A stretch of DNA of 64,000 bases from Melioribacteraceae bacterium (lineage in GTDB: Bacteria; Bacteroidota; Ignavibacteria; Ignavibacteriales; Melioribacteraceae). The notes under the pieces are model-generated. The model had not been told where the DNA came from, did no database searches, and saw nothing but the letters and a program-made list of their open reading frames with translations. This document shows, piece by piece, positions 29,774 through 62,981 of the stretch. How positions within the stretch are numbered: the stretch's first letter is position 1; each line of letters starts with the position of its first letter. The stretch lies in the NCBI GenBank assembly GCA_021739765.1, contig JAIPBD010000001.1, positions 310,001 through 374,000 of the forward strand. Reading direction: 5' to 3'. The position numbers and the translations under genes are program-made.

Positions 29774-30784
29774 TTATTCCAAAAAGTACATATTCATAAC
29801 ACCCTTGCCTTTTACGGCAATTTCACCGCGATCTATCAGCTTAAACTTGTCCTTTACCAAATCGTAAGTGTTTTGTGAAATATTTATTCTCATTGGCTCC
29901 GAATTACTTTCCATTCTGCTGGCAGTATTGACGGTATCGCCAAAAATATCATAGACATATTTCGTTTTGCCCACAACTGCTCCAACGACAGGACCCGTGC
30001 TAATTCCGGCTCGTAATTGAAAACCCAAACCCAGATTTTTTCGGTTTCTTTCGTTCAGAAAATCTATTAGACCCCTCGCGATTTCAATTATAATCTCAGC
30101 ATGTTTATTGTTAGAAACCGGCACTCCGCAAGCTGCCATGTAAGCATCACCAATAGTTTTAATTCTTTCGCCGCCATTTCGATAAGTAATTTCGTCAAAA
30201 GCGGAAAAAATTTCATTTAGTTCGGTTATTAAATCATCAGCGGAGGTTTTTGATGAAATAGATGTGAACCCGACAAGATCGGTAAACAAAATTGTCACAT
30301 CTTCAAAATGTTCCGGCATCGAGAAACCGTCTTCCATTAAATCATTAATAATTTTTCGGGGAAGAATGTTTTCGAGAAGTTGGTCGGCTCTTTTAGTAGT
30401 GCGGACTAAATTTAAGTGCGTTTTTACTCTGGCTTCAACAATTGCCGGATGAAACGGTTTCGTGATATAGTCTGCGGCGCCAAGTTTAAATCCTTTTGTT
30501 TCATCTTCAATATCATTCAAAGCGCTGACAAAAATCACCGGGATATGTTTTGTATTATTACTGGACTTCAGCTTTTCAATCACTTCATACCCATCCATTC
30601 CGGGCATCATAATATCTAATAAAATCAGATCGGGTGGATTACCGGAGTTCGCAATTTTTAAAGCCGTTTCACCATTAAGCGCTATTTTACGTTTATATGC
30701 GGAAAGTAAACCGGAAAGAATATCCAAATTCTCGGGAGTATCATCGACAATAAGAATTGAGGGTATGTAGGATAAGCCGTTCAT
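29774..30784 (-). CDS. Response regulator with class III adenylate cyclase output
   Basis: The 336-residue protein has a receiver domain (1-125; VDDTPEN, LILLDIMMPGMDG, and the Lys in YITKPFHP) joined to a class III nucleotide cyclase domain (about 150-335). Catalytic features are present: the two metal Asp (FTDLVGFTSIS and the D of TIGDAYMA) and the substrate-specifying Lys and Asp (ERIKTIGDAYM, YDIFGDTVNTASRME), which point to ATP, hence cAMP, rather than GTP. It is the last gene of the SiaBC/AAA+ operon, and its ATG overlaps the stop of the lone receiver gene (TGATG). Phosphorylation by the operon's kinase probably controls cAMP synthesis, which is an inference. Confidence 0.9.
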   Translation of the reverse strand: MNGLSYIPSILIVDDTPENLDILSGLLSAYKRKIALNGETALKIANSGNPPDLILLDIMMPGMDGYEVIEKLKSSNNTKHIPVIFVSALNDIEDETKGFKLGAADYITKPFHPAIVEARVKTHLNLVRTTKRADQLLENILPRKIINDLMEDGFSMPEHFEDVTILFTDLVGFTSISSKTSADDLITELNEIFSAFDEITYRNGGERIKTIGDAYMAACGVPVSNNKHAEIIIEIARGLIDFLNERNRKNLGLGFQLRAGISTGPVVGAVVGKTKYVYDIFGDTVNTASRMESNSEPMRINISQNTYDLVKDKFKLIDRGEIAVKGKGVMNMYFLE

Positions 30785-31149
30785 CAGTTATTTAAAATTT
30801 GATGAATTGAATTAAGCATTTTCTCGGAATCGAATGGTTTTAGTAAATAATCAACTGCGCCGAGTTGCAAACCTTTCTCCATTTCGGCTTGCGAATCTTT
30901 TGAAGTCAAAAAGATTACCGGAATATTTTTGGTATACTCATTACTTTTTAATTCTTTTATTACTTCGTATCCATCCTTGCCGGGCATCATAATATCTAAC
31001 AAAATAAGATCAGGTCGAACGGGGGAGTTAGCTATCTTTAAAGCTAAATCACCATTTATTGCGACTTTCTTTTGGTAATCTTTTAAAATACTCGAAAGTA
31101 TTTGAATGTTTTCGGGTGTATCATCCACGATTAATATTGTTTTATCCAT
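30784..31149 (-). CDS. Single-domain response regulator
   Basis: A 121-residue stand-alone receiver: acidic pair in LIVDDTPENIQ, phosphorylation Asp in LILLDIMMPGKDG, switch Thr in FLTSKDS, and Lys in LLKPFD. It has no output domain, so it should act by protein contact or as a phosphate shuttle or sink in a relay, as CheY or Spo0F do. Its sequence is close to the receiver halves of the two neighbours (REC-cyclase and REC-PP2C), suggesting local duplication. It starts 7 bases after the AAA+ gene and overlaps the cyclase gene by one base. Confidence 0.92.
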   Translation of the reverse strand: MDKTILIVDDTPENIQILSSILKDYQKKVAINGDLALKIANSPVRPDLILLDIMMPGKDGYEVIKELKSNEYTKNIPVIFLTSKDSQAEMEKGLQLGAVDYLLKPFDSEKMLNSIHQILNN

Positions 31150-31156
31150 TTACACT

Positions 31157-34100
31157 TCACACGATATTTAGTTTTGAAACATCCTCTTCTTCAATTGTCG
31201 CGAGATCATCATCGTTATGTTCAATCATCGCCGCTAATCTTTCTTCTTGCAGGCTTATTACATCAAAAAGGATATTTCTTGCTGTTCGGGCATTACCAAA
31301 ATTTTTATCGCGTTTTTGGTAAAGTGTGTCAAACAAAGTTAATAGTCTAACATTAGCATTTGGTGAAATTTTATATCCGCTGGATTTTGCCATTATTTCA
31401 CAAATTTTCATCAACTGACCTGGAGTATAATCTTCGAATTCAAATGTATTAGTAAATCTTGAAGTCAGTCCGGGGTTCGTCTCCATAAAGGTTTTCATTT
31501 CGTTGGTGTAACCGGCAACGATGCAGATAAATTGACCTCGATAATCTTCCATTCTTTTGAGCAAAGTTTCGATTGCTTCCTGGCCGAAATCGTTTCCTCC
31601 GCGGGAAAGTGTGTAAGCCTCATCAATAAAAAGTGTACCGCCAAGTGCTTGTTTAATTACCGCATCAGTTTTGATAGCCGTTTGACCTTGATAACCCGCA
31701 ACCAATTGCGCTCTGTCAACTTCTACCAAATGTCCTTTTTCGATAATTCCAAGTTCACGGAAAATGTCGCTCATTATTCGAGCCACGGTTGTTTTTCCGG
31801 TTCCGGGATTTCCTGTAAAGACGGAATGAAGTGGTTTTTCCATCACTTGCATTCCTCTTTCTCTTCGTATCTTGGCAATTTTTAATCCGCTAACAAGTTT
31901 TGTAACACTTTCTTTTACGGAAGTTAACCCGGTAAGCGACTCAAGGGAGGCGAGATGTTTCTGAAGTTTTTGCTCATCACCTTTGAATACTTTCTTAACA
32001 GTTTCTGCTTTCTGAGGAAGAATGTCAGAGAAATCTTCGATTCTGTAAGTTGATTTCTGTTCGTTAGTTAACTCTGTATGTGGAATTTCTGTAAGACGAG
32101 AAAGCATCCTTTTTTCCGCGCCATCCATTATATTTCTTACAATTCTTGCATTTCCAAAGTTTTTATCACGATTTCTGTAGATTTCATTAAAATGCTTTTG
32201 AAGAGCGATTTTAGCGTCATTATAAATAGTTTTTTTCTGCGAGGTCGCAATTCTTTCGGCAATTTCAAGTAATTCATCCGGAGTATAATCTTCAAAATGA
32301 AATGTTTTTGTGAAGCGGGATTTCATTCCGGGATTACTTTCCAAAAATTCTTTCATTTCGTTAGTATAGCCGGCCGCGATTGTAATAAACTTTCCGCGAT
32401 CGTCTTCCATGCGTTTTAATAATGCATCTATAGCCTCTGTTCCAAAATCCGAGCCGCTATCGCCCTTTTTAACAAGTGTATACGCTTCATCGATAAAAAG
32501 TGTACCGCCCATTGATTTATCGATGATCTCATTTGTTTTATCGGCGGTCTGACCAACATAACTCGCCACCAACCCTTTGCGGTCGGTTTCAATTAAATGG
32601 CCTCGTGGTAAAACTCCCAAACCGGAAAAAATATCTCCAATTATTCGAGCAACAGTAGTTTTGCCGGTTCCAGGATTTCCGAGAAAAAGAATATGGGATG
32701 TAAATTTACTGCGGATATCTTCACCAAGATTTCTATAATACTTAGCAAGTTTCACCATTTCCCGAACGTCATTTTGAACAGATGTTAATCCGGTTAGTGA
32801 TTCTAATTTTTTCAACGCCGAATTTAGTTTTTCCTCATCAATAGGAATGTCAACCTTTTTACTTTCATCAACAGGTGAAATGATTGATTGAATATCATCC
32901 AAAGTGATGGTAACCATTTTATCGCGGGTTCGTTCGTGTTTTGGTGTTTGCAAGTATCGTTTGCTAAGTGCCATTTTTGCGTCTTCGAAAAACTTTCGCA
33001 CCGTACGCGCGTTTCCAAAATTTTGATCCCGGTTGCGGTATAGTTTTGTGAATTCTTTAACAAGAGTCTCTTCGGCACCGGGAGTAATTTTATATTCTTC
33101 GGCAATCATCATTTTGCGGAAAATTGCCATCATTTCTTCAGGAGTATAATCTTCGAAATTGAAAGTATGGGTCATTCGAGATTTCATGCCCGGATTTGCT
33201 TCGAGGAATGATTGCATCTCATTCGGATAGCCGGCCGCAATTACGAAAAAATCACCTTTTTTATCTTCCATTCGTTTAAGTAATACATCGATTGCTTCCT
33301 GTCCAAAATCTTGACCGCTTCCGCCTTGTTTTACTAATGTGTAAGCTTCATCGATAAAAAGCACATTTCCCATTGCCGACTCAATGATTTTTTCGGTCTT
33401 TTGCGCGGTTTCGCCGATGTATTGTCCAACCAGTTCAGCTCTATCGACTTCAATAACTTTGCCTTCTTTTAATAATCCCATTCCTTTAAATATTCTACCC
33501 ATCAAACGCGCGATAGTGGTTTTACCGGTTCCGGGATTACCAAGGAAAATCGCGTTAATTGCAATTTTATCTTGAGCTTTCAAGCCGATCTGTTTCCGCT
33601 CTTTCATGAACTCGATATAATCGATTAATTCACGAACGGATTTTTTAATTGAATTAAGCCCGATGTTGCTGTCAAGTTCTGAAAGCACTTCTTCGAAATT
33701 AATTTCATCGGATTTGGCTTTATCCTCGGACGGCTTTTCTTTACCGGGTTCGGAATTGTCTATTACAGACTTTTCAGAAACCAAGAAGTTTTTTGTGGCG
33801 ATGTTTTTTCTTTCCAGGAATATTTCAACTCTTCCTTCGCCTTCGCCCCAGAACGGGGAAGATGAAGCATCGCAGTATTGCCTAAACATCATCGCGTCCC
33901 AATCAGAAGGAACTTCCACCTCTACATTTCCTTGGTGGATGATTTCTTCATTCAGATACCACGCAATAAAAACTTGATGTTTCTTCGCTTCCTTATTAAA
34001 AAACGGATTATTAAATATTACTTCAACACCAATTTTTTGAATTGAACTGATATTAAACTCATTAAAGAATTCTTTTTTGTCATCACCGGCGTTACCGTCA

Positions 34101-34978
34101 AATAATCGAATGGAAAAAATATCCATTAAGTTATTTTCGGAATATTTCACCGAATATTTATCATTGCTCGAACCTGAAGTTGGCGATGAAGATTTGAATT
34201 CAACCGATTTCTTTTCGTAAGTGTTTAGCGCATTTTCAATAGAGGAAAGTTTTTCATTATTTGGATACTTTTCTTTCAATTCCGGTAATTTTTGTAATAC
34301 TGGAGTTAGTTGATTCAATCTAAACATTGATTCAAGAAGGAATATTTCCCAGGTTTGTTCATTCTCAAGCGATTTTCCGGATTCTAGAACTTTCTTGCTG
34401 ATCAACAAAGCGAACCAATATTCTTTTGCCTCGATCGCGGCCTGAACATAATCTTGATATTTGGCAATATCGGATTCGTCAAAATTTTCTTTTTTTGCAA
34501 TGAGCTTTTCTGCTCGATCAAAATATTTCCTTGTAGATTCCCACTCCTTGTGTGCGCCTCGATCCATCATGATCGCGAGTTCGTAAGAACCGGCTGCTTT
34601 TTTGATAGAACCCATCGCCCCCAAAGCTTTCGATTTATTATAATACGACCAAGCGAGCATATCTTTTTGCACATCCTGAGTCATATTAAAATCGTAAACA
34701 GCGCCTTCAAAACTGCTAAGCCTTAAATGCAAATAAGCACGGTAAGTTTGAGCAATTATTGTATTGCCTGCCATTTCCTTCGACTTATTGAGATATTCCA
34801 TCGCAATAAGCGGATTCCCGTTTTCTAACAACGACCATGCGTAGCAAACGTTACTTTCCGCGTTGTTTGGTTGTTCATTAACCAGTTTTTCCGCAATTGG
34901 TAATGCAAGTCGGGCTCGACCGTGTAATAAATGGTCAAAAGCTTCTTTTTGTAATTTATATAAATCGGCTGAGTTCAT
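31157..34978 (-). CDS. TPR protein with three CbbX/SpoVK-type AAA+ domains
   Basis: The 1273-residue protein has a helical TPR-like region (about 1-245), a beta-rich domain (about 265-400, around EVIFNNPFFNKEAKKHQVF), then three tandem AAA+ domains of the CbxX/CfqX family. Each has an intact Walker A GNPGTGKTT (near residues 480, 765 and 1055), a Walker B LFIDEAYTL, an IAAGY or IVAGY sensor stretch and a NFGNAR(T/I) motif. Such ATPases thread or remodel partner proteins in hexameric rings. CbbX, SpoVK and EccA have only one such domain, and EccA also has an N-terminal TPR part. Within the operon it follows the SiaC-like and small helical protein genes and is a plausible effector of the partner switch, by inference. 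Confidence 0.88.
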   Translation of the reverse strand: MNSADLYKLQKEAFDHLLHGRARLALPIAEKLVNEQPNNAESNVCYAWSLLENGNPLIAMEYLNKSKEMAGNTIIAQTYRAYLHLRLSSFEGAVYDFNMTQDVQKDMLAWSYYNKSKALGAMGSIKKAAGSYELAIMMDRGAHKEWESTRKYFDRAEKLIAKKENFDESDIAKYQDYVQAAIEAKEYWFALLISKKVLESGKSLENEQTWEIFLLESMFRLNQLTPVLQKLPELKEKYPNNEKLSSIENALNTYEKKSVEFKSSSPTSGSSNDKYSVKYSENNLMDIFSIRLFDGNAGDDKKEFFNEFNISSIQKIGVEVIFNNPFFNKEAKKHQVFIAWYLNEEIIHQGNVEVEVPSDWDAMMFRQYCDASSSPFWGEGEGRVEIFLERKNIATKNFLVSEKSVIDNSEPGKEKPSEDKAKSDEINFEEVLSELDSNIGLNSIKKSVRELIDYIEFMKERKQIGLKAQDKIAINAIFLGNPGTGKTTIARLMGRIFKGMGLLKEGKVIEVDRAELVGQYIGETAQKTEKIIESAMGNVLFIDEAYTLVKQGGSGQDFGQEAIDVLLKRMEDKKGDFFVIAAGYPNEMQSFLEANPGMKSRMTHTFNFEDYTPEEMMAIFRKMMIAEEYKITPGAEETLVKEFTKLYRNRDQNFGNARTVRKFFEDAKMALSKRYLQTPKHERTRDKMVTITLDDIQSIISPVDESKKVDIPIDEEKLNSALKKLESLTGLTSVQNDVREMVKLAKYYRNLGEDIRSKFTSHILFLGNPGTGKTTVARIIGDIFSGLGVLPRGHLIETDRKGLVASYVGQTADKTNEIIDKSMGGTLFIDEAYTLVKKGDSGSDFGTEAIDALLKRMEDDRGKFITIAAGYTNEMKEFLESNPGMKSRFTKTFHFEDYTPDELLEIAERIATSQKKTIYNDAKIALQKHFNEIYRNRDKNFGNARIVRNIMDGAEKRMLSRLTEIPHTELTNEQKSTYRIEDFSDILPQKAETVKKVFKGDEQKLQKHLASLESLTGLTSVKESVTKLVSGLKIAKIRRERGMQVMEKPLHSVFTGNPGTGKTTVARIMSDIFRELGIIEKGHLVEVDRAQLVAGYQGQTAIKTDAVIKQALGGTLFIDEAYTLSRGGNDFGQEAIETLLKRMEDYRGQFICIVAGYTNEMKTFMETNPGLTSRFTNTFEFEDYTPGQLMKICEIMAKSSGYKISPNANVRLLTLFDTLYQKRDKNFGNARTARNILFDVISLQEERLAAMIEHNDDDLATIEEEDVSKLNIV

Positions 34979-34996
34979 AGTTTGTGTGGAATCTAA

Positions 34997-35233
34997 TTAG
35001 TCGAGATTTCTCAAAGTATCCATAAGATCTTTGTATTTTAATAATTTCTGCTGGGCTTTGTCACCCAATTTTGAGATACGTGCAGCTGTTTTTAAAAGTT
35101 TATCGTAATTTTCTTTCAACATTTGATATTCTACCATTAGTTGGTCTCTATCAATATCATGCCATTTAGCAATTCGTTCGGCTCTTGATTGGGATTCATA
35201 ATATTCTTGGAAAATATCTTCATGTTCGCTCAT
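34997..35233 (-). CDS. Small helical protein of the SiaBC/AAA+ operon
   Basis: A 78-residue, highly charged, probably coiled-coil protein (AKWHDIDRDQLMVEYQMLKE then LLKTAARISKLGDKAQQK; both stretches are heptad-like). No signal peptide, membrane helix or recognised family. It lies 7 bases after the SiaC-like gene and 18 bases before the AAA+ gene, so it is part of the operon. It could be an adaptor linking SiaC or the phosphorelay to the AAA+ protein, which is conjecture from position only. Confidence 0.75.
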   Translation of the reverse strand: MSEHEDIFQEYYESQSRAERIAKWHDIDRDQLMVEYQMLKENYDKLLKTAARISKLGDKAQQKLLKYKDLMDTLRNLD

Positions 35234-35240
35234 AACTTCC

Positions 35241-35615
35241 TCACTTAGTAAAAATATTGAATGGAATTTTAGTGTCTTCTTTTAATTCTTCACCCATTTC
35301 TTGAATGTCTTCATCATCTTCTTCGTGATACCAATTAATTTTTACCTCTCCACCGCCTTTAAAATAGGTTTCAAGTTTCTCGATTATGTCCGAAACGAAT
35401 TTAATAGAACTTGAATTCAAATAATCAAGATCGAAATTAAGTGTTAATTCACCGGTTACATTTAACATGTATTGATTAATCCAATCGACAATTTGCCCAT
35501 AAAATTCCGATGTATTTTCGGGATATGAGGAGCCTTTAATTTCCATAATTCCGGTATCAGGATCGCAATTTACGGTTGGAGTATTTTTGGTTTGCTCTAA
35601 ATTTAAACTATCCAT
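35241..35615 (-). CDS. siaC: SiaC family regulatory phosphoprotein (DUF1987)
   Basis: The 124-residue protein matches DUF1987/SiaC: GIMEIKGSSYPENTSEFYGQ (YPEN and FY are diagnostic), a WINQY stretch, then DYLNSSSIKFVSDI, and an acidic C-terminal WYHEEDDEDIQEMGE. In Pseudomonas SiaC is a STAS-like partner-switch protein phosphorylated on Thr68 by SiaB, dephosphorylated by SiaA, and in its free form activates the diguanylate cyclase SiaD. Here the matching site is Ser (N67-S68-S69-S70), also phosphorylatable. The start overlaps the siaB-like stop by eight bases. No SiaD-type gene is nearby, so its target must differ. Confidence 0.88.
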   Translation of the reverse strand: MDSLNLEQTKNTPTVNCDPDTGIMEIKGSSYPENTSEFYGQIVDWINQYMLNVTGELTLNFDLDYLNSSSIKFVSDIIEKLETYFKGGGEVKINWYHEEDDEDIQEMGEELKEDTKIPFNIFTK

Positions 35616-36162
35616 CTGATTTCTCCTGTACTAAGTTTACATTAAATTTTATTGTTGAAAATTCCGCATTAACCTCTTCAAGATCAGTATCCAATTTTGT
35701 CTTGGATTTCCTGATCACCTCTACAAATCCTATTCCTCCACCTTTGCTCTCTTCTTCTTTTGGTGCTTTTAGGAGTTCTTTATAATGGGCTTTTAATTCA
35801 TCCTCGTTCAGTTCATTAAGAGTATCAATTCTACTTTTTAGAGCATTACCCTTAGCCGTCTTAATTTTGTTTGATGTATTAATTGAAATCCGTTCGGAAT
35901 CAAATTCAATTTCAATCGTACCTTTGCCAACTTCAGCACCATCAAAAAGGGTAATACGATCTGCGGAATAAAATCCAATATTTTGAACTAATTCATTAGA
36001 GCAGATAAAAGCTCTTTTGATTAACATTGGATTAAATTTCCCATCCAATTGTTCTCTTAATGTATCACCTATCTCCATTAAGATATTATGGGTAATTGGC
36101 CCGGAATAAAAAATCTTAGTTTTGCCGGTAATTTCTTCAGAAACACTAACTTTTTTGTTCAT
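35608..36162 (-). CDS. siaB: SiaB-like protein kinase (DUF6272)
   Basis: The 184-residue protein resembles SiaB: FYSGPITHNILMEIGDTLREQ at the start, then RAFICSNELVQNIGFYS, in which E-x-x-Q-N corresponds to the ATP-binding N box of this HATPase-related fold, and GGGIGFVEVIRKS, a glycine-rich loop later on. SiaB kinases phosphorylate the SiaC-type partner and so switch it off. The start has GGAAAG upstream. The coding region overlaps the siaC-like gene, as expected for a tightly balanced kinase-substrate pair, and lies 14 bases after the phosphatase gene. Confidence 0.85.
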   Translation of the reverse strand: MNKKVSVSEEITGKTKIFYSGPITHNILMEIGDTLREQLDGKFNPMLIKRAFICSNELVQNIGFYSADRITLFDGAEVGKGTIEIEFDSERISINTSNKIKTAKGNALKSRIDTLNELNEDELKAHYKELLKAPKEEESKGGGIGFVEVIRKSKTKLDTDLEEVNAEFSTIKFNVNLVQEKSDG

Positions 36163-36176
36163 CGCTACTTTCCAAT

Positions 36177-37346
36177 TTAAATTCTAATCCCTATTACTGT
36201 TACATCATCCCGCTGTGGTTCATCTCCTTTGAACTCGTCCAAACGAGAAATTAAGATTTCCTTCTGTTTGCTAAGATCATATTTGTGAATTTCTGTTATA
36301 ACTTCCCGAAACTGTCTGGTGCCGAATTTTTTCCCTTCAAAATTATTTTGATCGATGTAACCATCAGATAGAAAATAGAACATTGTCTCATTTTCTATAT
36401 TAATTATCTCGGTGGTAAATACTTTATCTTTTTTTATGTCCCCGATCGATTTCCGAGTACCTTTTACCTCAGTTAATTCACCATTAGTAAAATAAAAGAG
36501 GGGTCTGCCTGCTCCGGAATAACTTACTGTATTTTTCACGTTATCATAAACAATTAAGCCAAGATCCATACCATCCAAAGTTCCGGTATTAACATTTTTA
36601 TTCAACTCTTCAATTATATTCTTATCAAGCATATTTAAAATTTCGCCTGCGTCATCAACCCCAAATTTGTTCACGATATCATTCAATAAAGTGTTACCGA
36701 TCATCGACATAAAAGCACCGGGAACACCGTGACCGGTACAATCCACACAAGCAATTATTTTTTTACCGTATTTTTCAGCTGCCCAATAAAAATCACCACT
36801 CACAATATCTTTAGGTTTAAAAATGATAAAAGACTCTTTGAAGAGGGAAGCAATCACTTCATCAGTAGGAAGGATTGACGATTGAATTCTTTTGGCATAT
36901 TTGATGCTATCTGTTATATACCGGTTTCTTTCCTCCAATTGGATGTTTTGCTCGTTCATTATCTTTCGAGCTTTTTGGAGTTCAAGATGATTTTTTACTC
37001 GCGCTAACACTGAGGGCGGACTAATCGGTTTGGATATAAAATCGACGGCGCCCAATGACAATCCCTTGGTTTCATCTTCAATCGAATTTTTCGCGGTAAT
37101 AAATATTACGGGAATATCTTTCGTTTTAGGATCGGCTTTTAGTCTTTCGCAAACTTCATAACCATCCATTTCGGGCATCATTATATCGAGAAGAATAATA
37201 TCCGGTTGTGGTTCTTGTTGGGCTAGTTTGAGTGCAATTTTACCGTTTACAGCAGCCTTACGTTTAAATTCAGAAAGTACTTCAGAAAGCAGTTGAATGT
37301 TCTCCGGAGTATCGTCTACTATTAAAACAGATTGTTCATCATGCAC
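36177..37346 (-). CDS. Response regulator with PP2C (SpoIIE/RsbU-type) phosphatase output
   Basis: The 389-residue protein combines a receiver (1-120; LIVDDTPEN, IILLDIMMPEMDG, Lys in FISKPIS), a short coiled-coil linker (ERNRYITDSIKYAKRIQSSI), and a PP2C domain (about 180-389) with metal-binding motifs SGDFYW, CVDCTGHGVPGAFMSM, GMDLGL and FFLSDGYIDQ-like residues (FYFLSDGYID). It would be the functional partner of SiaB: SiaA in Pseudomonas is a membrane PP2C that dephosphorylates SiaC, whereas here the phosphatase is soluble and gated by phosphorylation of its receiver, probably by the adjacent histidine kinase. Confidence 0.92.
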   Translation of the reverse strand: MHDEQSVLIVDDTPENIQLLSEVLSEFKRKAAVNGKIALKLAQQEPQPDIILLDIMMPEMDGYEVCERLKADPKTKDIPVIFITAKNSIEDETKGLSLGAVDFISKPISPPSVLARVKNHLELQKARKIMNEQNIQLEERNRYITDSIKYAKRIQSSILPTDEVIASLFKESFIIFKPKDIVSGDFYWAAEKYGKKIIACVDCTGHGVPGAFMSMIGNTLLNDIVNKFGVDDAGEILNMLDKNIIEELNKNVNTGTLDGMDLGLIVYDNVKNTVSYSGAGRPLFYFTNGELTEVKGTRKSIGDIKKDKVFTTEIINIENETMFYFLSDGYIDQNNFEGKKFGTRQFREVITEIHKYDLSKQKEILISRLDEFKGDEPQRDDVTVIGIRI

Positions 37347-37438
37347 TTGTTTATTGTTCCTATTCTGTAAAAGTGTAAGGCTAAAAAATAATATAAATTT
37401 TTATAATAAACAGACGTTCAAGTATTTTAAATTGTTTA

Positions 37439-38851
37439 TTAGTTGCCGCCTAACCCAGAGTGCTTCAACGTAATACGAGATTGAAGTAACTTTAATTCTT
37501 CTATTGCCAAATCGAACTGATAATTCATAATTTCTTTCTTTATTTTTTTAATAGTTTCTTCACCCGGCAATATATTTTCAATTTCATCCGCAATTTTAAT
37601 TGAATCGGCATCATAATCTTCTAAGTGGGAACTAAGTTCATCTAATAATTTCTGAATAATCTCGAATTCAGTTTTCTCAATATCAAGTGTCGACGAGTTA
37701 TTTTCACTGAATTGAACAAGCTCAGATTCTTTAGAATGAAGATTGATTTCTATTTTGTCGTATATATCTACTTCAATAGGGATTTTAATTATAAATCGAC
37801 TACCCTCATTTATTTGACTTTCAATTTTTAAATCACCATCAATAATATCAAGATATTTGACACAAATTGCCAAACCGAGTCCGAGTCCGCCAAACTTGCG
37901 GGTGGATGAATCTTCCACTTGATAAAACATCGTTGTGATTTTATCCAACTTATCTTTGCTAATTCCAATTCCGGTATCCGATACTGCTATTTCCATGAAG
38001 ATTTTTTCATCTTCAATAATATCTTGCACTTTGACCTTTATAAAACCGCTGGAAGTAAACTTAAAAGCGTTTTCAAGAATATTTACCAATACTTTCTCCA
38101 AGATCAAGGAATTACTTTTAAGCCTTCGATTAATTTTGCCCTCTGAAGTAATCTCAAAGTGAATATTCTTATCCTCAGCCGATGTTTTGAATCTATCAAA
38201 AAATAAATGAAGGAAATTTTCAAAATTTACTTCGTGGATATCCGAACGGATTTTCCCGCCGTCAATCTTTGAATAATCAAGAATTTCATCAAACATTTTT
38301 AACAGATCATGTGATTCTTTAAGGATTTTATCCACTTGTTTTTTAGTATTGGCAGATTGAAGCGATGTACCTAGTTGATGGGAGGTTCCGATAATCGCGT
38401 TTAGTGGTGTTCTAATTTCATGACTTATTACGGAAATAAATTCGGCTTTAGATTTGTTGGCTTCTTTTAACTGATATGTTCGTTCTTCGATCTGCTTTTC
38501 GAGATATAGGTTTGTATGTTTTATTTTTTTTTCAATAATGAAAACGCGCGAAACCACCGGTATCCATTTCCAAAATCCCACAAAAAGTAAAATCCCACCC
38601 AGAGAGTACCCGACTACTTTTTCAAGTATTGCTTGTGCGGTTGTGTGACCAAAAATTATTAGGAATGAAAGTTCAGGGAATTGATCGGAGACATCTATTA
38701 CTGAGCCAAGTGCTAAAAGACCAAAACCGGCCAATAAATAATTCCAACCACTCTGTTTTTGCAGCTCAACTCTTTTGCCAATTCTCAATAAGAAAAAAAA
38801 CAAAATTGTAAGAAGAACTGCTCGAATTATTTCTAATACCAGAATTAACAT
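37439..38851 (-). CDS. Membrane sensor histidine kinase heading the SiaBC/AAA+ operon
   Basis: A 470-residue protein with three membrane helices near the N-terminus (about 3-22, 38-55 and 75-98), a coiled-coil linker, a HisKA domain (ISVISHEIRTPLNAIIG; His near 144), and an HATPase domain (NILENAFKFTSSG, DTGIGIS, FGGLGLGLAI). It has no receiver or HPt, so the separate receivers downstream in the operon (REC-PP2C, lone REC, REC-cyclase) are its natural targets. After the ATPase it carries a C-terminal helical tail of about 75 residues (LLDELSSHLEDYDADS then NYQFDLAIEELKLL), which resembles the tail of the four hybrid kinases upstream. The gap to the phosphatase gene is 92 bases. Confidence 0.9.
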   Translation of the reverse strand: MLILVLEIIRAVLLTILFFFLLRIGKRVELQKQSGWNYLLAGFGLLALGSVIDVSDQFPELSFLIIFGHTTAQAILEKVVGYSLGGILLFVGFWKWIPVVSRVFIIEKKIKHTNLYLEKQIEERTYQLKEANKSKAEFISVISHEIRTPLNAIIGTSHQLGTSLQSANTKKQVDKILKESHDLLKMFDEILDYSKIDGGKIRSDIHEVNFENFLHLFFDRFKTSAEDKNIHFEITSEGKINRRLKSNSLILEKVLVNILENAFKFTSSGFIKVKVQDIIEDEKIFMEIAVSDTGIGISKDKLDKITTMFYQVEDSSTRKFGGLGLGLAICVKYLDIIDGDLKIESQINEGSRFIIKIPIEVDIYDKIEINLHSKESELVQFSENNSSTLDIEKTEFEIIQKLLDELSSHLEDYDADSIKIADEIENILPGEETIKKIKKEIMNYQFDLAIEELKLLQSRITLKHSGLGGN

Positions 38852-38887: not shown

Positions 38888-41800
38888 TTATAATTTCTGA
38901 TCATGCACAATGATTTCCACAATTTCCGTTGCTCCATCAAAATCATAAGCATCAATAGTGTCTTTAAGTTTTTGTGATTCTTTTTGGTGTCCGGGAATTG
39001 GATGTATCTCAAGTATCAGATTTTGAGCTTCTGGATCAAAGTTCTCAAGCATCTCTTTTAACTTCGCGAGTTTTTCTTTCAATTCGTCTTCACTTATCTC
39101 AACTTCTGCTTTTGATTCATTCTCAATTACTTTTTCCCTTACTTGCTTCAAGATAGGGGATAGGAAAGTGTCGAGTTCAGATAGAATTTTATCAATGTTC
39201 TCAAGTTTTTTATCGATAAAAAATTTCTCCAACTCTTTAACTTTTTCATGAAGTTCAATTGCACCAATATTGCCGGTAACGCCTTTAAGAGTATGCATCA
39301 ATCGGTGATCTGTTTCGTAATCTTTTTCTTCAACTTTTTGTTTCAGTTCTTCAATAATGTTTACATTTCCTTTGTAGAACTTCTCGAGCAGCGAACGGTA
39401 GAGTTTCTTATTACCTCCAACACGAGAAATACCATTACTTGTATTAATTCCGGTGATATCGGGGAATGATTCATCGAGATTATGATCTAATTCTGTGTCT
39501 TCAATAATTTGTTTAGCTGAGTATTTTTCCGACTCAGGCTTTACTGTCTTTTCTAAACCATGTTCGACCGACAAAGGAGGAATCCATCTAACTAAAGCAC
39601 CAAAAGCCGCATCGGGATCTATAGGTTTGGTGACAAAATCCGTCATTCCGACTTTCAAACATTTTTCTTTAACACCGGTTACGGCATCCGCTGTCAGACC
39701 GACAATCGGTAAGTTTTTGTATTGATCAAGTTTTCGGATCTCTTCAGTCGCCTTGTATCCATCCATAACCGGCATCTGGATATCCATAAAAACGAGATTG
39801 TATTTTGAGGGCACTCCCGATTCTTTAATCTTCTCTAATGCAATTTGACCGTTGTTTGCAAGCTCGATAATAAAACCTTCACTTTCGAATAATTCTCTCG
39901 CCACCTGCTGATTGATCTCATTATCCTCAACGATTAGAAGCTTAGCTCCTTTAATTTTTTTGAGCTCGGTTGCATATTTTTTCCCTCGTTTATCTGAGAT
40001 AAAATCTTTGCTTATTTCCTTCCCAAACACGTGCATAATTGTATTGTAAAGTGCCGAGGATGAGACAGGTTTGGTTAAAATTTTATCAACATATATTAAT
40101 TGATCGGGGTCCAATTCTTGTTCAAGATTATTTTTGCCGGTTAACAAAATTACTTTTGCTGATTTTAGCTCGTCACGCATCTTAATTCGTTTTGCCAGAA
40201 TGATGCCTTCATCATCCTTGATATAATCATCGATTATGAAAAGATCTATTTCTTTCTTATTTCGTTCTAATATTTGAATTAGTTTAGAGCTTCTATCCGA
40301 TTGAAAAACATTGAAACCAAATTTTTCCAGATATTCAGCAATTATTGATTGAGAATAAATATTATCATCGCAAATAAATGCGTTATTGCCTATAAGGTCG
40401 GGACTAATTAGGAGTTCGCGTTCGGGTTGTTTTTCTTGAATTTTCAGATCGAGTGTGAAACCAAATATACTTCCTCTTCCGGCATTGCTTTTTACCGAAG
40501 TTTCGCCTCCCATCAACTCAACTAATTTTTTAGAAATTGCCAATCCTAAACCGGTTCCACCATATTTACGTGTTGTGGATGAATCCGCTTGTTGAAATTC
40601 TTTGAACAGATTCTTTTGCTGTTCTTCTGTTAAGCCAATTCCCGAATCTTGAACGGAAAATTCAAGTTTTACATTTTTGCCCGAAATGTTCTTAACTTCG
40701 GCTCTGATAATAATTTCACCCTCATTGGTGAATTTGACCGCGTTGCTGGCGAAAATTGTTAAAACTTGACCGATTCTCAGCGGATCACCGATTAGTAAAC
40801 GCGGAACGTCATCCGAAATATAAACCAGGAATTCGAGGTCTTTTTCTATGGCTTTTTGTGCGTTGAAACCCGTTACGGTATCAAAAACTTGCTCAATATT
40901 AAATTCGATATTTTCTATCTCCAGCTTACCGGCTTCAATTTTGGAGAAATCGAGTATGTCGTTTATAATTCCAAGAAGCGTGTTTGCCGAGCGATCGATT
41001 TTTACAAGGTAATCTTGTTGTTTTGTAGTTAAATCTGTTTTTAATGCCAAATTGGAAAATCCTATTATCGCGTTCATCGGAGTTCGGATTTCGTGGGACA
41101 TAGTTGCGAGGAATTGACTTTTTGTAAGGGTTGCTTCTTCAGCCAATTCTTTGGCTTTTCTCAATTCTGCTTCACTATTTTTTCGATCGGTTATATCAAG
41201 AGTAATACCGACAACTCGTTTGATTCTACCTTCCTTTGTTCTTTCGAGGATTTTGCCTTTAGTAAGCAGCCAGCGTTTTGGATTTTGGTTACGATCTATT
41301 GTGCGGTACTCATGCGAATACTCATTAATTTCATTGTTAATATATTTATTGAATTTAGCCGACATTTCTTCAAAATCTTCGTCAGCTATGTTCTTTTTAA
41401 AATCATCTTGTTTTAGTGGATTATAGCTGAATTCCATATCATGCAGACGGTAATTGATTTCATTCCAAATTGATTCTTCTTCCAAAAGATTTGAATCCCA
41501 CAAACCGATTTCGGCCCCTTCGAGAGTCAATTCCAACCGTTTTCTATTTTCATCAAGAGCTTCTTCCATTTTCATACGATCGGTCATATCCACAAACGCG
41601 GAGACATATTTAGTACCGATGACGGAGGAGGAGGATTCCATTATTTTTTTTACTCCATCTTTGCTTGTGATGGTGATGTTAAACGGACGGAATTGTTTGT
41701 TTTTGAATGCAAATTTTTGTCTTTCATTCCACTGATTTATCACTTCTTCGCGGTATTTGGGATCAGGAAAAGCAGCTTTACGCCATTGTTCAATATTTTC

Positions 41801-43918
41801 AGTATCCTTTAATGTGTAACCCAGAATTTCTATAAACTTATCGTTCACGAACACAATTTTACCTTGCTCTTCAACCGTAACGGGAACGGGGGATTTTTGC
41901 AAGATTGCCATATTTTGTCGAAGCGCATTATTAAGATCTTTAGTTCTTTCACCAACTTTTTCCTCAAGCTCCGTATTAATTGCTTTCATTCTTTCATCGG
42001 CTTTTTTACGTTGATAAAAACCGGAGATTGAACGGGACACATTTTCGAGTAGCTGAATTTCCTCTTTTAGGAAGAGTCCTTTGGCTTTCTTTTTCTTTTC
42101 GCTGTAAACTACGGTGATTGAACCTTTGATTTCTTTTCCAATAAAAATCGGTTGTGATAATTTCCATTCGGAATTCTTGAATAGGTCAAAATCATTTGAT
42201 TGGTAGACTTTTCCCAAAAACTGAATCTCTGAGTAAGCGACTTCCGCCGATTGGAAAGCGGGTGGAATGGTTTCAACTACTTGATGTAGTATTTGGTCAA
42301 TATCTTTTTCAATAGCGGTTGTGATTTTTGAAACGTGGTTCAAACACGTCAATTCTTTCATTCTTTCACCGATTGAATCGAGCAATTTTTCTCTTTCGCG
42401 CTCCGCTATTTTGTTATCGGTTATGTCAATAGTTACACCAATTATTTTAACCGGTTTACCGGATTCGTCATTCACAAGACTGGCACGAGATGTAAAGTAT
42501 TTAATTCTTCCTTTCTCTGGATTAGAACGAAACTCAACAACATAGGGGACATTCTTTTCAATTGTTGATTTTATCGCATTTTTAATTTTATCGCGATCTT
42601 CAGGGTGAACATAGTCGAGAAATGATTCGTTGTTGAAATTGAAATCCGCTGTTTTTATTCCAAGAAGTTCTAAAGTAAATTCGTCCTGATAATTTTTCAT
42701 CGTGTTGATGTTCGTTTCCCAGGTTCCGATTCCTCCTGTCTTTAAAGCTAATTTCAATCTTGCTTCGCTGTCTTTTATTTTCTCTTCTCTAATCTCAATT
42801 TCTTTGCCGACTTTATTAAAAGTTGAAAACAAATCTTGGACTTCATCATTCGAGTTCTTCACTTCGATCTCTTGATAGTTGCCCTCTCCGAAGCGATTAA
42901 TCAGTGTTCTTAATGATCTGAGCGGTCTGGAAATTCTTCTGGAGAATGTGAACAGACCTACTGTTAAAAGTACAAAAGCCAGAATAACCGAGTAAAGAAT
43001 TGTACGTATCAATTGATTTAAATCAGCAAAAGCATCATCCTCACTAAGTGAGGCGGAAATACTCCAATTCGTTGACTTAATCGGGGCGTAAAAGGCAAGC
43101 CGGTTAATTCCTTCACCACTGTCATACAATACCATTGTTCCGGAATTCCCGGCGATCATTTCTTCGCCGATTTTTTTTTGTAATTCGGGGTCCATTCCGG
43201 AATCTTCAAGAGTTAATATATTGTCTCTTAAAATCCGTGCTTTGGAAGGGTGATAGATAAACTGCCCGGTTCCGGAAATAATTACAAAACCGAAAGATTC
43301 ATACTCTGTGAACTTATCGACTAAAATACCGGAAAGTGGTTCCAGAGAAATATCAATTGTTAGAATTGCGATTATTTTGCCGTCTACTTTTACCGGTGTT
43401 GCAAAAGTAACCATCTTGATATTGCCCGCACCGGGCGCGTAGTAAGGTTCTATCCAAACCGGATTACCTTGTTTTAATGGTTTATTAAACCAATCCCATT
43501 CCGGCTCTGTGTAATCATACTGTAACTCAACGGTTTTAGTTGAGTCGCCAGATCGCAAAACAAAAGGGGCGTAAAGCGGTTTATTTTTGTACTCCCGGGG
43601 AAGGAAAGCCAAGCATGAACCGAATATAAACGGATCAGATTCAAGGTTTCGTTTGAGTATTTGATTTATCTCGGACTCGGTTAGAACATCATGCAGTACA
43701 AATTCCTGAGAAGAAATTTCAGCTATTTTTTGATATAATCTTAGTTTGCTGTCGATGCTTTCGGCGTACTCCTCGGCTACACGAATCATTTTTTCTTCGA
43801 AATTTTTCTTTACAAAGTCTGAACCGACAAATACAACATACGATAATTGCACAGTGTAGATCAGTGCAATTGGAATTATTAGAAAAATTAAAAATTTTTT
43901 AGTAAGCGAAAGACGCAT
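38888..43918 (-). CDS. Cache-PAS hybrid histidine kinase with two receivers and HPt
   Basis: The 1676-residue protein has a membrane helix (7-29), a periplasmic dCache domain (about 35-295), a second helix (about 300-325) and HAMP (about 328-380). Next come a PAS domain (about 385-505), a GAF-like region (510-640) and two more PAS domains (to about 915). The kinase core is HisKA ([15 protein letters not shown]; His near 941) plus HATPase. Then follow REC1 (about 1176-1298), REC2 (about 1324-1446; [12 protein letters not shown]), an HPt (HTLKG, His near 1541) and a helical tail. REC1 keeps its Asp (LFIIDDYIKDDEG) but has lost the usual MP-DG surround. GAGGGG precedes the start. It is a full internal phosphorelay whose end target is not in the protein. 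Confidence 0.93.
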   Translation of the reverse strand: MRLSLTKKFLIFLIIPIALIYTVQLSYVVFVGSDFVKKNFEEKMIRVAEEYAESIDSKLRLYQKIAEISSQEFVLHDVLTESEINQILKRNLESDPFIFGSCLAFLPREYKNKPLYAPFVLRSGDSTKTVELQYDYTEPEWDWFNKPLKQGNPVWIEPYYAPGAGNIKMVTFATPVKVDGKIIAILTIDISLEPLSGILVDKFTEYESFGFVIISGTGQFIYHPSKARILRDNILTLEDSGMDPELQKKIGEEMIAGNSGTMVLYDSGEGINRLAFYAPIKSTNWSISASLSEDDAFADLNQLIRTILYSVILAFVLLTVGLFTFSRRISRPLRSLRTLINRFGEGNYQEIEVKNSNDEVQDLFSTFNKVGKEIEIREEKIKDSEARLKLALKTGGIGTWETNINTMKNYQDEFTLELLGIKTADFNFNNESFLDYVHPEDRDKIKNAIKSTIEKNVPYVVEFRSNPEKGRIKYFTSRASLVNDESGKPVKIIGVTIDITDNKIAEREREKLLDSIGERMKELTCLNHVSKITTAIEKDIDQILHQVVETIPPAFQSAEVAYSEIQFLGKVYQSNDFDLFKNSEWKLSQPIFIGKEIKGSITVVYSEKKKKAKGLFLKEEIQLLENVSRSISGFYQRKKADERMKAINTELEEKVGERTKDLNNALRQNMAILQKSPVPVTVEEQGKIVFVNDKFIEILGYTLKDTENIEQWRKAAFPDPKYREEVINQWNERQKFAFKNKQFRPFNITITSKDGVKKIMESSSSVIGTKYVSAFVDMTDRMKMEEALDENRKRLELTLEGAEIGLWDSNLLEEESIWNEINYRLHDMEFSYNPLKQDDFKKNIADEDFEEMSAKFNKYINNEINEYSHEYRTIDRNQNPKRWLLTKGKILERTKEGRIKRVVGITLDITDRKNSEAELRKAKELAEEATLTKSQFLATMSHEIRTPMNAIIGFSNLALKTDLTTKQQDYLVKIDRSANTLLGIINDILDFSKIEAGKLEIENIEFNIEQVFDTVTGFNAQKAIEKDLEFLVYISDDVPRLLIGDPLRIGQVLTIFASNAVKFTNEGEIIIRAEVKNISGKNVKLEFSVQDSGIGLTEEQQKNLFKEFQQADSSTTRKYGGTGLGLAISKKLVELMGGETSVKSNAGRGSIFGFTLDLKIQEKQPERELLISPDLIGNNAFICDDNIYSQSIIAEYLEKFGFNVFQSDRSSKLIQILERNKKEIDLFIIDDYIKDDEGIILAKRIKMRDELKSAKVILLTGKNNLEQELDPDQLIYVDKILTKPVSSSALYNTIMHVFGKEISKDFISDKRGKKYATELKKIKGAKLLIVEDNEINQQVARELFESEGFIIELANNGQIALEKIKESGVPSKYNLVFMDIQMPVMDGYKATEEIRKLDQYKNLPIVGLTADAVTGVKEKCLKVGMTDFVTKPIDPDAAFGALVRWIPPLSVEHGLEKTVKPESEKYSAKQIIEDTELDHNLDESFPDITGINTSNGISRVGGNKKLYRSLLEKFYKGNVNIIEELKQKVEEKDYETDHRLMHTLKGVTGNIGAIELHEKVKELEKFFIDKKLENIDKILSELDTFLSPILKQVREKVIENESKAEVEISEDELKEKLAKLKEMLENFDPEAQNLILEIHPIPGHQKESQKLKDTIDAYDFDGATEIVEIIVHDQKL

Positions 43919-62573: not shown

Positions 62574-62981
62574 TTAGTTTACACCTTTACCATTCAGGTA
62601 AGGACCAAATTTCGTATCAGAACCTACAATATGATCATGTAGCCAATCGCGGAGAAAATTCATAACATCAATTGTCAAAACTCTTTCTCCGGCTTCAAAC
62701 TTCTTCTGTAGAGCAGCAACCTGTTCTACTAACTCGGCATGCTGTTTTTTGTGAATATCAGATTCCGGGTAATCATATTGATCGAAATATTTTTCTTCAG
62801 TGCCGAAATGATAGACCGTATAATCTACAACATCACTCAAAATCTTGCTCATAGCTTCTTTTGCTTTTCCCATCATCATTGCTTCGTGAAGTTCGTTGAT
62901 CAATTTGACTAACTTTTTGTGCTGTGAATCAATTTCCTGAATGTTAACTTCGTATACTTGTTTCCAATCGACCAAAGCCAT
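62574..62981 (-). CDS. Bacteriohemerythrin
   Basis: The 135-residue protein is a single-domain hemerythrin that binds O2 at a non-haem di-iron site. Ligands are visible in order: H in IDSQHKKL, HFGTEEKYF (His and Glu), HKKQHAEL (two His), and the final HDHIVGSD (His and Asp). It could carry, store or sense oxygen in the cytoplasm. GTGAGGG precedes the ATG. It is transcribed in the same direction as the kinase genes and ends about 100 bases before the propeller kinase gene starts, so a shared transcript is possible. Confidence 0.95.
   Translation of the reverse strand: MALVDWKQVYEVNIQEIDSQHKKLVKLINELHEAMMMGKAKEAMSKILSDVVDYTVYHFGTEEKYFDQYDYPESDIHKKQHAELVEQVAALQKKFEAGERVLTIDVMNFLRDWLHDHIVGSDTKFGPYLNGKGVN

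Follow-up and report, generated by a model that had tools for sequence, protein, structure and literature searches.

The window described here, a stretch of 64,000 nucleotides from the 4.5 Mb genome of a Melioribacteraceae bacterium, carries on its reverse strand, between positions 29,774 and 38,851, a set of eight genes arranged around a SiaABC-type partner switch: a histidine kinase, a PP2C phosphatase with a receiver (REC) domain, a SiaB-like kinase, SiaC, a 78-residue helical protein, a TPR-AAA+ protein with three AAA+ modules, a lone receiver and a REC-adenylate cyclase (Table 1). All eight open reading frames (ORFs) are intact, a 92-base gap follows the histidine kinase gene, and the remaining genes overlap by 1-8 bases or sit 7-18 bases apart; the gene content, positions and spacing given in the initial annotation hold, and Pfam and NCBIfam return the domains that it had named. 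By sequence comparison the 78-residue protein appears to be a stalk of the kind found in the diguanylate cyclase SiaD, detached from the enzyme, and is thus the expected target of SiaC.

Table 1. Features of the gene set and of its same-strand surroundings, in window positions.
Feature	Position	Strand	Size and basis
histidine kinase	37439..38851	-	470 aa; HisKA 1.2e-16, HATPase_c 4.9e-22 (Pfam)
REC-PP2C phosphatase (SiaA counterpart)	36177..37346	-	389 aa; Response_reg + SpoIIE (2.4e-19)
SiaB-family kinase	35608..36162	-	184 aa; DUF6272 (Pfam); NCBIfam SiaB family kinase
SiaC	35241..35615	-	124 aa; PF09345 1.6e-43
SiaC Ser68 codon (= T68 of P. aeruginosa SiaC)	35412..35414	-	alignments
free-standing SiaC-docking stalk (putative function)	34997..35233	-	78 aa; no Pfam match
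putative SiaC-binding motif, stalk residues 52-64 (RISKLGDKAQQKL)	35042..35080	-	register with SiaD S82/D83/Q86
TPR - beta domain - AAA+ x3, siaC-linked paralogue, SpoVK/CbbX/EccA clade	31157..34978	-	1273 aa
lone receiver domain	30784..31149	-	121 aa; Response_reg
REC-class III cyclase (accessory)	29774..30784	-	336 aa; Response_reg + Guanylate_cyc
giant hybrid histidine kinase (Cache, HAMP, PAS, HisKA, HATPase, REC x2, Hpt), likely input	38888..43918	-	1676 aa
hemerythrin, head of same-strand signalling array	62574..62981	-	PF01814 3.9e-17

A SiaABC-type switch with receiver-domain input had been proposed from the window itself, and the genes agree with it: SiaC, the SiaB kinase and REC-PP2C are adjacent, with active-site motifs intact. 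The PP2C part matches the SiaA model NF038263 (E 1.1e-61) with a score of 209 against a full-length cut-off of 700, so that the protein is not a full-length SiaA, and it carries the motifs SGDFYW, VDCTGHG and QRDDVT. The kinase encoded next to siaC scores 123 bits on NF038262 (NCBIfam cut-off 85), with ELVQN at position 57 and GGGIG at 141. SiaC scores 125.8 bits on the NCBIfam SiaC model, under the equivalog cut-off of 150, and has N67, S68 and S69, with Ser68 as the expected phosphosite within YLNSSS, together with E79, E110 and D114. Phosphatase and SiaB kinase are fused, along with a receiver domain, in five of the 13 siaC loci of the order Ignavibacteriales (L008, L106, L108, L109 and L110), and a PP2C-SiaB fusion also occurs in L059.

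The 78-residue protein matches no Pfam family, hence no GGDEF domain, and weakly matches the N-terminal helix of SiaD (NCBIfam NF038266, E 0.0015). In 33 siaC neighbourhoods the next gene often encodes this same helix at its start, and L46, D58, Q61 and L64 are the four invariant positions of a 28-row stalk alignment, with D58 and Q61 aligned to D83 and Q86 of SiaD. The profile made from this alignment, partly built from the rows of SiaC genomes themselves, matches the SiaD of PDB 7E6G twice, on both of its SiaC-binding motifs (RIARISDGFQ and KVARISDRYQ; overall E 0.0063). Residue counts over 73 stalks give D58 in 73, Q61 in 68, and glycine or serine at position 57 in 72. In profile-profile comparison (hhalign), 12 free stalks match nine GGDEF-fused stalks, eight from records that we read as proteobacterial-group and one from Mesoflavibacter (85%, E 5.8e-6), and a single coiled-coil control, the linker coil of the REC-PP2C proteins, gives no match (0.2%, E 0.35).

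The register of the alignment places the free stalk in a known binding mode. According to PMC8457831, T68 of Pseudomonas aeruginosa SiaC inserts between paired stalk helices and bonds S82 and Q86 of SiaD, residues next to T68 touch Q86 and D83, and D79, E110 and D114 of SiaC bond the stalk arginines and lysine R74, K77, R80 and R84. The equivalent residues of the free stalk are G57, Q61 and D58 on the one side and R52, K55 and K59 on the other, the R74 position being T49. The predicted docking of SiaC on the free stalk is well supported at the sequence level.

How closely the stalk follows SiaC was followed through whole genomes and named loci. Among 165 genomes of the Ignavibacteriales, the stalk profile matches 10 of the 11 with a SiaC over the cut-off and none of the 154 others. 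The phylum sample of 395 genomes (22 with SiaC, 373 without) has 20 matching the profile at E <= 0.001; two of these (G161 and G236) are weak and stop-broken and were set aside, and the remaining 18 comprise 17 of the 22 SiaC genomes and one of the 373 without SiaC (Fisher 2e-24). Because the profile contains rows of many SiaC genomes, matches among them are to some extent expected by construction, which does not apply to the near-absence in the other genomes. The one genome outside the association, G317, has a stalk-cyclase at L205:5713-6636, and no SiaC was found in that genome. When 3618 ORFs from the best 80 of 222 named siaC loci were screened, 62 stalk ORFs were recovered in 54 loci, every one within 1.5 kb of a siaC. 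A stalk ORF lies in the same stretch for 74 of 114 distinct SiaC sequences, and directly after siaC for 60.

An acidic residue at position 79 is found in 57 of 74 SiaC with a stalk against 7 of 40 without (34/43 against 7/25 at 70% identity), and at position 114 in 59 of 74 against 10 of 40 (34/43 against 8/25); these contrasts were repeated at 70% identity and are otherwise uncorrected for descent. Serine at position 68 occurs in all 12 free-stalk loci and in 14 of the 62 SiaC accompanied by longer stalk proteins. Where no stalk gene adjoins siaC, SiaC is mostly without acidic residues at 79 and 114 and may have a partner of a different kind; in three such loci (L052, L055 and L056) the gene after siaC encodes a protein of about 1023 residues.

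With duplicates removed, 81 distinct stalk ORFs were classed by their best phmmer matches, Pfam confirming examples of the first six classes: GGDEF (23), histidine kinase (23), class III cyclase (10), PP2C (3), Ser/Thr kinase (3) and HD, HD-GYP-like (3). Twelve are free-standing, all from Ignavibacteriales, and the other four are two with a short CxxC domain, L059 (no Pfam match) and the frame-broken L145. The small CxxC-type domain, which has no Pfam name, follows the stalk alone in L133 and L142 and precedes GGDEF in L163. Seven further stalk genes, encoding three cyclases and four kinases (L206-L212), lie away from siaC in six SiaC genomes, so that one SiaC may serve several outputs.

The gene after the free stalk encodes, in the window, a protein with three AAA and three AAA_lid_6 stretches in Pfam, a TPR-like match below the cut-off, and three Walker A and three Walker B motifs; its AAA part is matched by the NCBIfam SpoVK, EccA and CbbX models. 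Members of this clade are described in PMC10659427 as dedicated chaperones with variable N-terminal domains, and by clade membership the window protein would be a protein-remodelling chaperone. The order holds 13 siaC loci in 11 genomes, 12 of them with a free stalk (the exception is a lone siaC, L111, in G487), and in nine loci of nine genomes a TPR-AAA+ gene follows the stalk, a recurrence beyond chance; the succession of siaC, small helical protein and TPR-AAA+ gene, which the initial annotation proposed to look for, is thus conserved. SiaB is present in eight of these nine loci, three times fused to the phosphatase, with no match in L011, whose AAA+ protein has two AAA stretches. A stalk tail of the form [KR]YK[DE]xxD is shared by all nine AAA-adjacent loci and L009 and is not seen in L106 or L110, and in L109 the stalk stop codon directly abuts the AAA+ start.

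The linked AAA+ proteins also stand apart by descent. Nine siaC-linked copies split from 13 unlinked copies, picked by us, with branch support of 100/100 in a tree in which L011 forms a long branch, and of 30 sampled AAA+ loci eight, each of them next to siaC, score as the linked type and 22 as the unlinked type, with models partly built from rows that were also scored. With L011 excluded, sites conserved specifically in the linked group make up 26 of 121 conserved sites in the TPR and beta region against 30 of 515 in the AAA part. The free-stalk and AAA+-linked loci are few and mutually related. Unlinked TPR-AAA+ proteins with three modules (for example L112:8803-12957) are common in the order, and several of the 13 unlinked stretches have as neighbours what we take to be a DUF2807-like gene and purE or ABC genes.

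These observations lead us to a reading that we hold to be moderately probable, namely a SiaABC switch with its target divided between two proteins, with a phosphorelay acting through REC-PP2C, dephosphorylated SiaC and the free stalk on an AAA+ chaperone. Hybrid histidine kinases would control how far the receiver of the PP2C phosphatase is phosphorylated, this receiver and the lone REC linking the kinases to the switch; by homology, SiaB would phosphorylate SiaC on Ser68 and the phosphatase would reverse this. SiaC binding to SiaD pairs the stalk and so activates the enzyme. Dephosphorylated SiaC would, by the register, grip the 78-residue stalk as in SiaD, with residue 68 beside G57 and Q61 (S82 and Q86 in SiaD) and its acids facing R52, K55 and K59. 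Since the stalk is free-standing here, it is most likely an adaptor on the neighbouring TPR-AAA+ protein, and the SiaC-stalk assembly, probably with paired stalks, may recruit, load or activate that protein, perhaps through the conserved C-terminal tail of the stalk and the TPR domain. Of the two targets that the initial annotation had offered for free SiaC, the small protein is backed by its match to the SiaD stalk, and for the AAA+ protein gene linkage suggests the coupling. What the data show directly is sequence relatedness and linkage, and each step from kinase to AAA+ protein is inferred from these.

Several results weigh against this reading. The SiaD model NF038266 matches the window copy of the 78-residue protein and none of its seven relatives; in the 7E6G search SiaD ranks below two designed coiled coils, which gain their scores from repeated weak matches; the nine GGDEF-fused rows of the hhalign comparison had originally been found by the stalk profile, which leaves that comparison short of full independence; a single docking motif is present in the free stalk where SiaD has two; and AlphaFold2 chains gave pTM values of 0.56 and 0.61 as output without coordinates or predicted aligned error. 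At the SiaC contact positions 103 (49/74 with a stalk, 31/40 without) and 110 (74/74 and 36/40) there is no contrast, and for 40 of the 114 distinct SiaC no stalk could be recognised in the stretch searched, some of these cases perhaps being cut off because the stretches are of unequal length. As to the AAA+ protein, three free stalks (L009, L106 and L110) have no adjoining AAA+ gene, and the genome of L110 (G464) has as its sole AAA+ family match a weak one (4.9e-12). The family occurs in 129 of the 165 order genomes and thus mostly without siaC; the suspicion in the initial annotation that the AAA+ gene might in relatives stand mostly without siaBC is therefore true of the family and not of the linked paralogue, which forms its own group and lies beside siaC in eight of eight cases.

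The same linkage could arise if the AAA+ machine acted on the switch, stripping SiaC from the stalk or dismantling stalk coils and so resetting it, with the real output elsewhere. Partner remodelling is what AAA+ proteins of this clade do, loci with an adjoining AAA+ gene keep the stalk tail, and the free stalks without such a neighbour fit this picture as well. SiaB already supplies a reset, however, and the 78-residue protein is the sole stalk match in the window genome, leaving no other output of the known kind, and we consider this explanation unlikely. It is doubtful, to a slightly greater degree, that the free stalk is a sink or decoy for SiaC and the AAA+ gene a passenger that does the same housekeeping work as its paralogue. 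The wide occurrence of the family away from siaC and the three free stalks lacking the neighbour speak for such a decoy, but the linked copies form one separate group kept with siaC in nine genomes, have conserved TPR sites of their own, and in L109 begin where the stalk ends.

Cyclic nucleotides were also weighed as the output. The initial annotation had suggested cAMP as a parallel output, and the window REC-cyclase has residues (Lys, Asp) that we take to be of the adenine type; elsewhere, the ten stalk-class III cyclase fusions among the 81 stalk ORFs would agree with cAMP as the main output of SiaC. The window cyclase, however, carries a receiver and is not among the stalk matches of its genome, and a REC-cyclase adjoins the AAA+ gene in just two of nine loci (the window and L107), so that cAMP finds no support as a core parallel output and is highly improbable as the main one. 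The split-target reading treats this cyclase as an accessory branch, which would be driven by the kinases and not by SiaC. A SiaD-like GGDEF protein elsewhere, named in the initial annotation as the possible real target, was not found in the search of the window genome: its sole GGDEF match is a GAF-GGDEF protein with no GG[DE]EF motif by eye. No EAL match was found in this genome, which has six class III cyclase matches and so seems to have few c-di-GMP enzymes and many cyclases.

The gene set does not start at 38,851, since a 1676-residue Cache-PAS hybrid kinase ends 36 bases upstream on the same strand, and beyond it lie three further giant hybrid kinases and then a hemerythrin gene. The four kinases (1013-2192 residues, with Hpt domains) occupy 38,888-62,470 together with a TonB receptor and a YfiR-like protein. 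Large kinases are likewise found upstream of the switch in L008, L010, L060, L105, L107 and L109, and a hemerythrin upstream of it in five of the nine AAA+-linked loci (the window, L060, L105, L107 and L108), counted over stretches of unequal length; the window hemerythrin is 70% identical to the L105 copy. From these hemerythrin neighbours one might guess at an oxygen or redox input.

Taken more widely, we would give an even chance to the proposal that the stalk is a portable SiaC-docking module carried by at least six classes of output enzyme, that one SiaC serves several stalk proteins, and that in the Ignavibacteriales a freed adaptor gates a triple-AAA+ machine. If this is true, SiaC becomes an exchangeable input to many enzymes, with one short motif predicting its partner from sequence, and the window holds the most extreme arrangement, in which a stalk on its own adjoins a protein-remodelling machine and the coupling is testable with few purified proteins. 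We know of no other partner switch that would control such an AAA+ motor. A literature search, with subscription papers mostly outside it, returned no stalk-bearing output besides SiaD, and DUF1987 in one paper. SiaABC, the SiaD stalk and the AAA+ clade are already known; as far as our searches show, the novelty lies in a stalk shared as a module by many outputs, in its occurrence as a free protein and in its pairing with an AAA+ partner.

Among known elements, the signaling helix is reportedly a short helix found in many signalling proteins, as the stalk is, but the stalk occurs in step with SiaC across genomes and shows an invariant D..Q..L pattern of its own. The SpoVK/CbbX/EccA clade (PMC10659427) shares the AAA plus AAA_lid_6 architecture, with TPRs also reported in EccA, and the window protein differs in its three AAA+ modules per chain, its extra beta domain and its partner-switch neighbour. 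The HptB-HsbR-HsbA and BgrSTUWV systems, named in the Discussion of PMC8457831, are alike in having a phosphorylation-controlled STAS-domain or STAS-like partner that acts on an enzyme, and differ in that the binding partners (HsbA and BgrV) are STAS-domain proteins, not DUF1987, and the outputs are diguanylate cyclases. The closest relative is SiaABCD of P. aeruginosa (PMC8457831; PDB 7E6G; PMC7647112), where SiaC is reported to be kept from binding its target once phosphorylated and which shares with the window the co-encoded PP2C phosphatase and SiaB kinase, the YxN[ST]S site of SiaC and the [SG]DxxQ docking motif of the stalk. In the window, by contrast, the stalk forms a protein of its own, has one motif in place of two and lacks a GGDEF domain, the phosphatase carries a receiver in place of a membrane sensor, residue 68 of SiaC is serine and not threonine, and the next gene encodes a TPR protein with three AAA+ modules.

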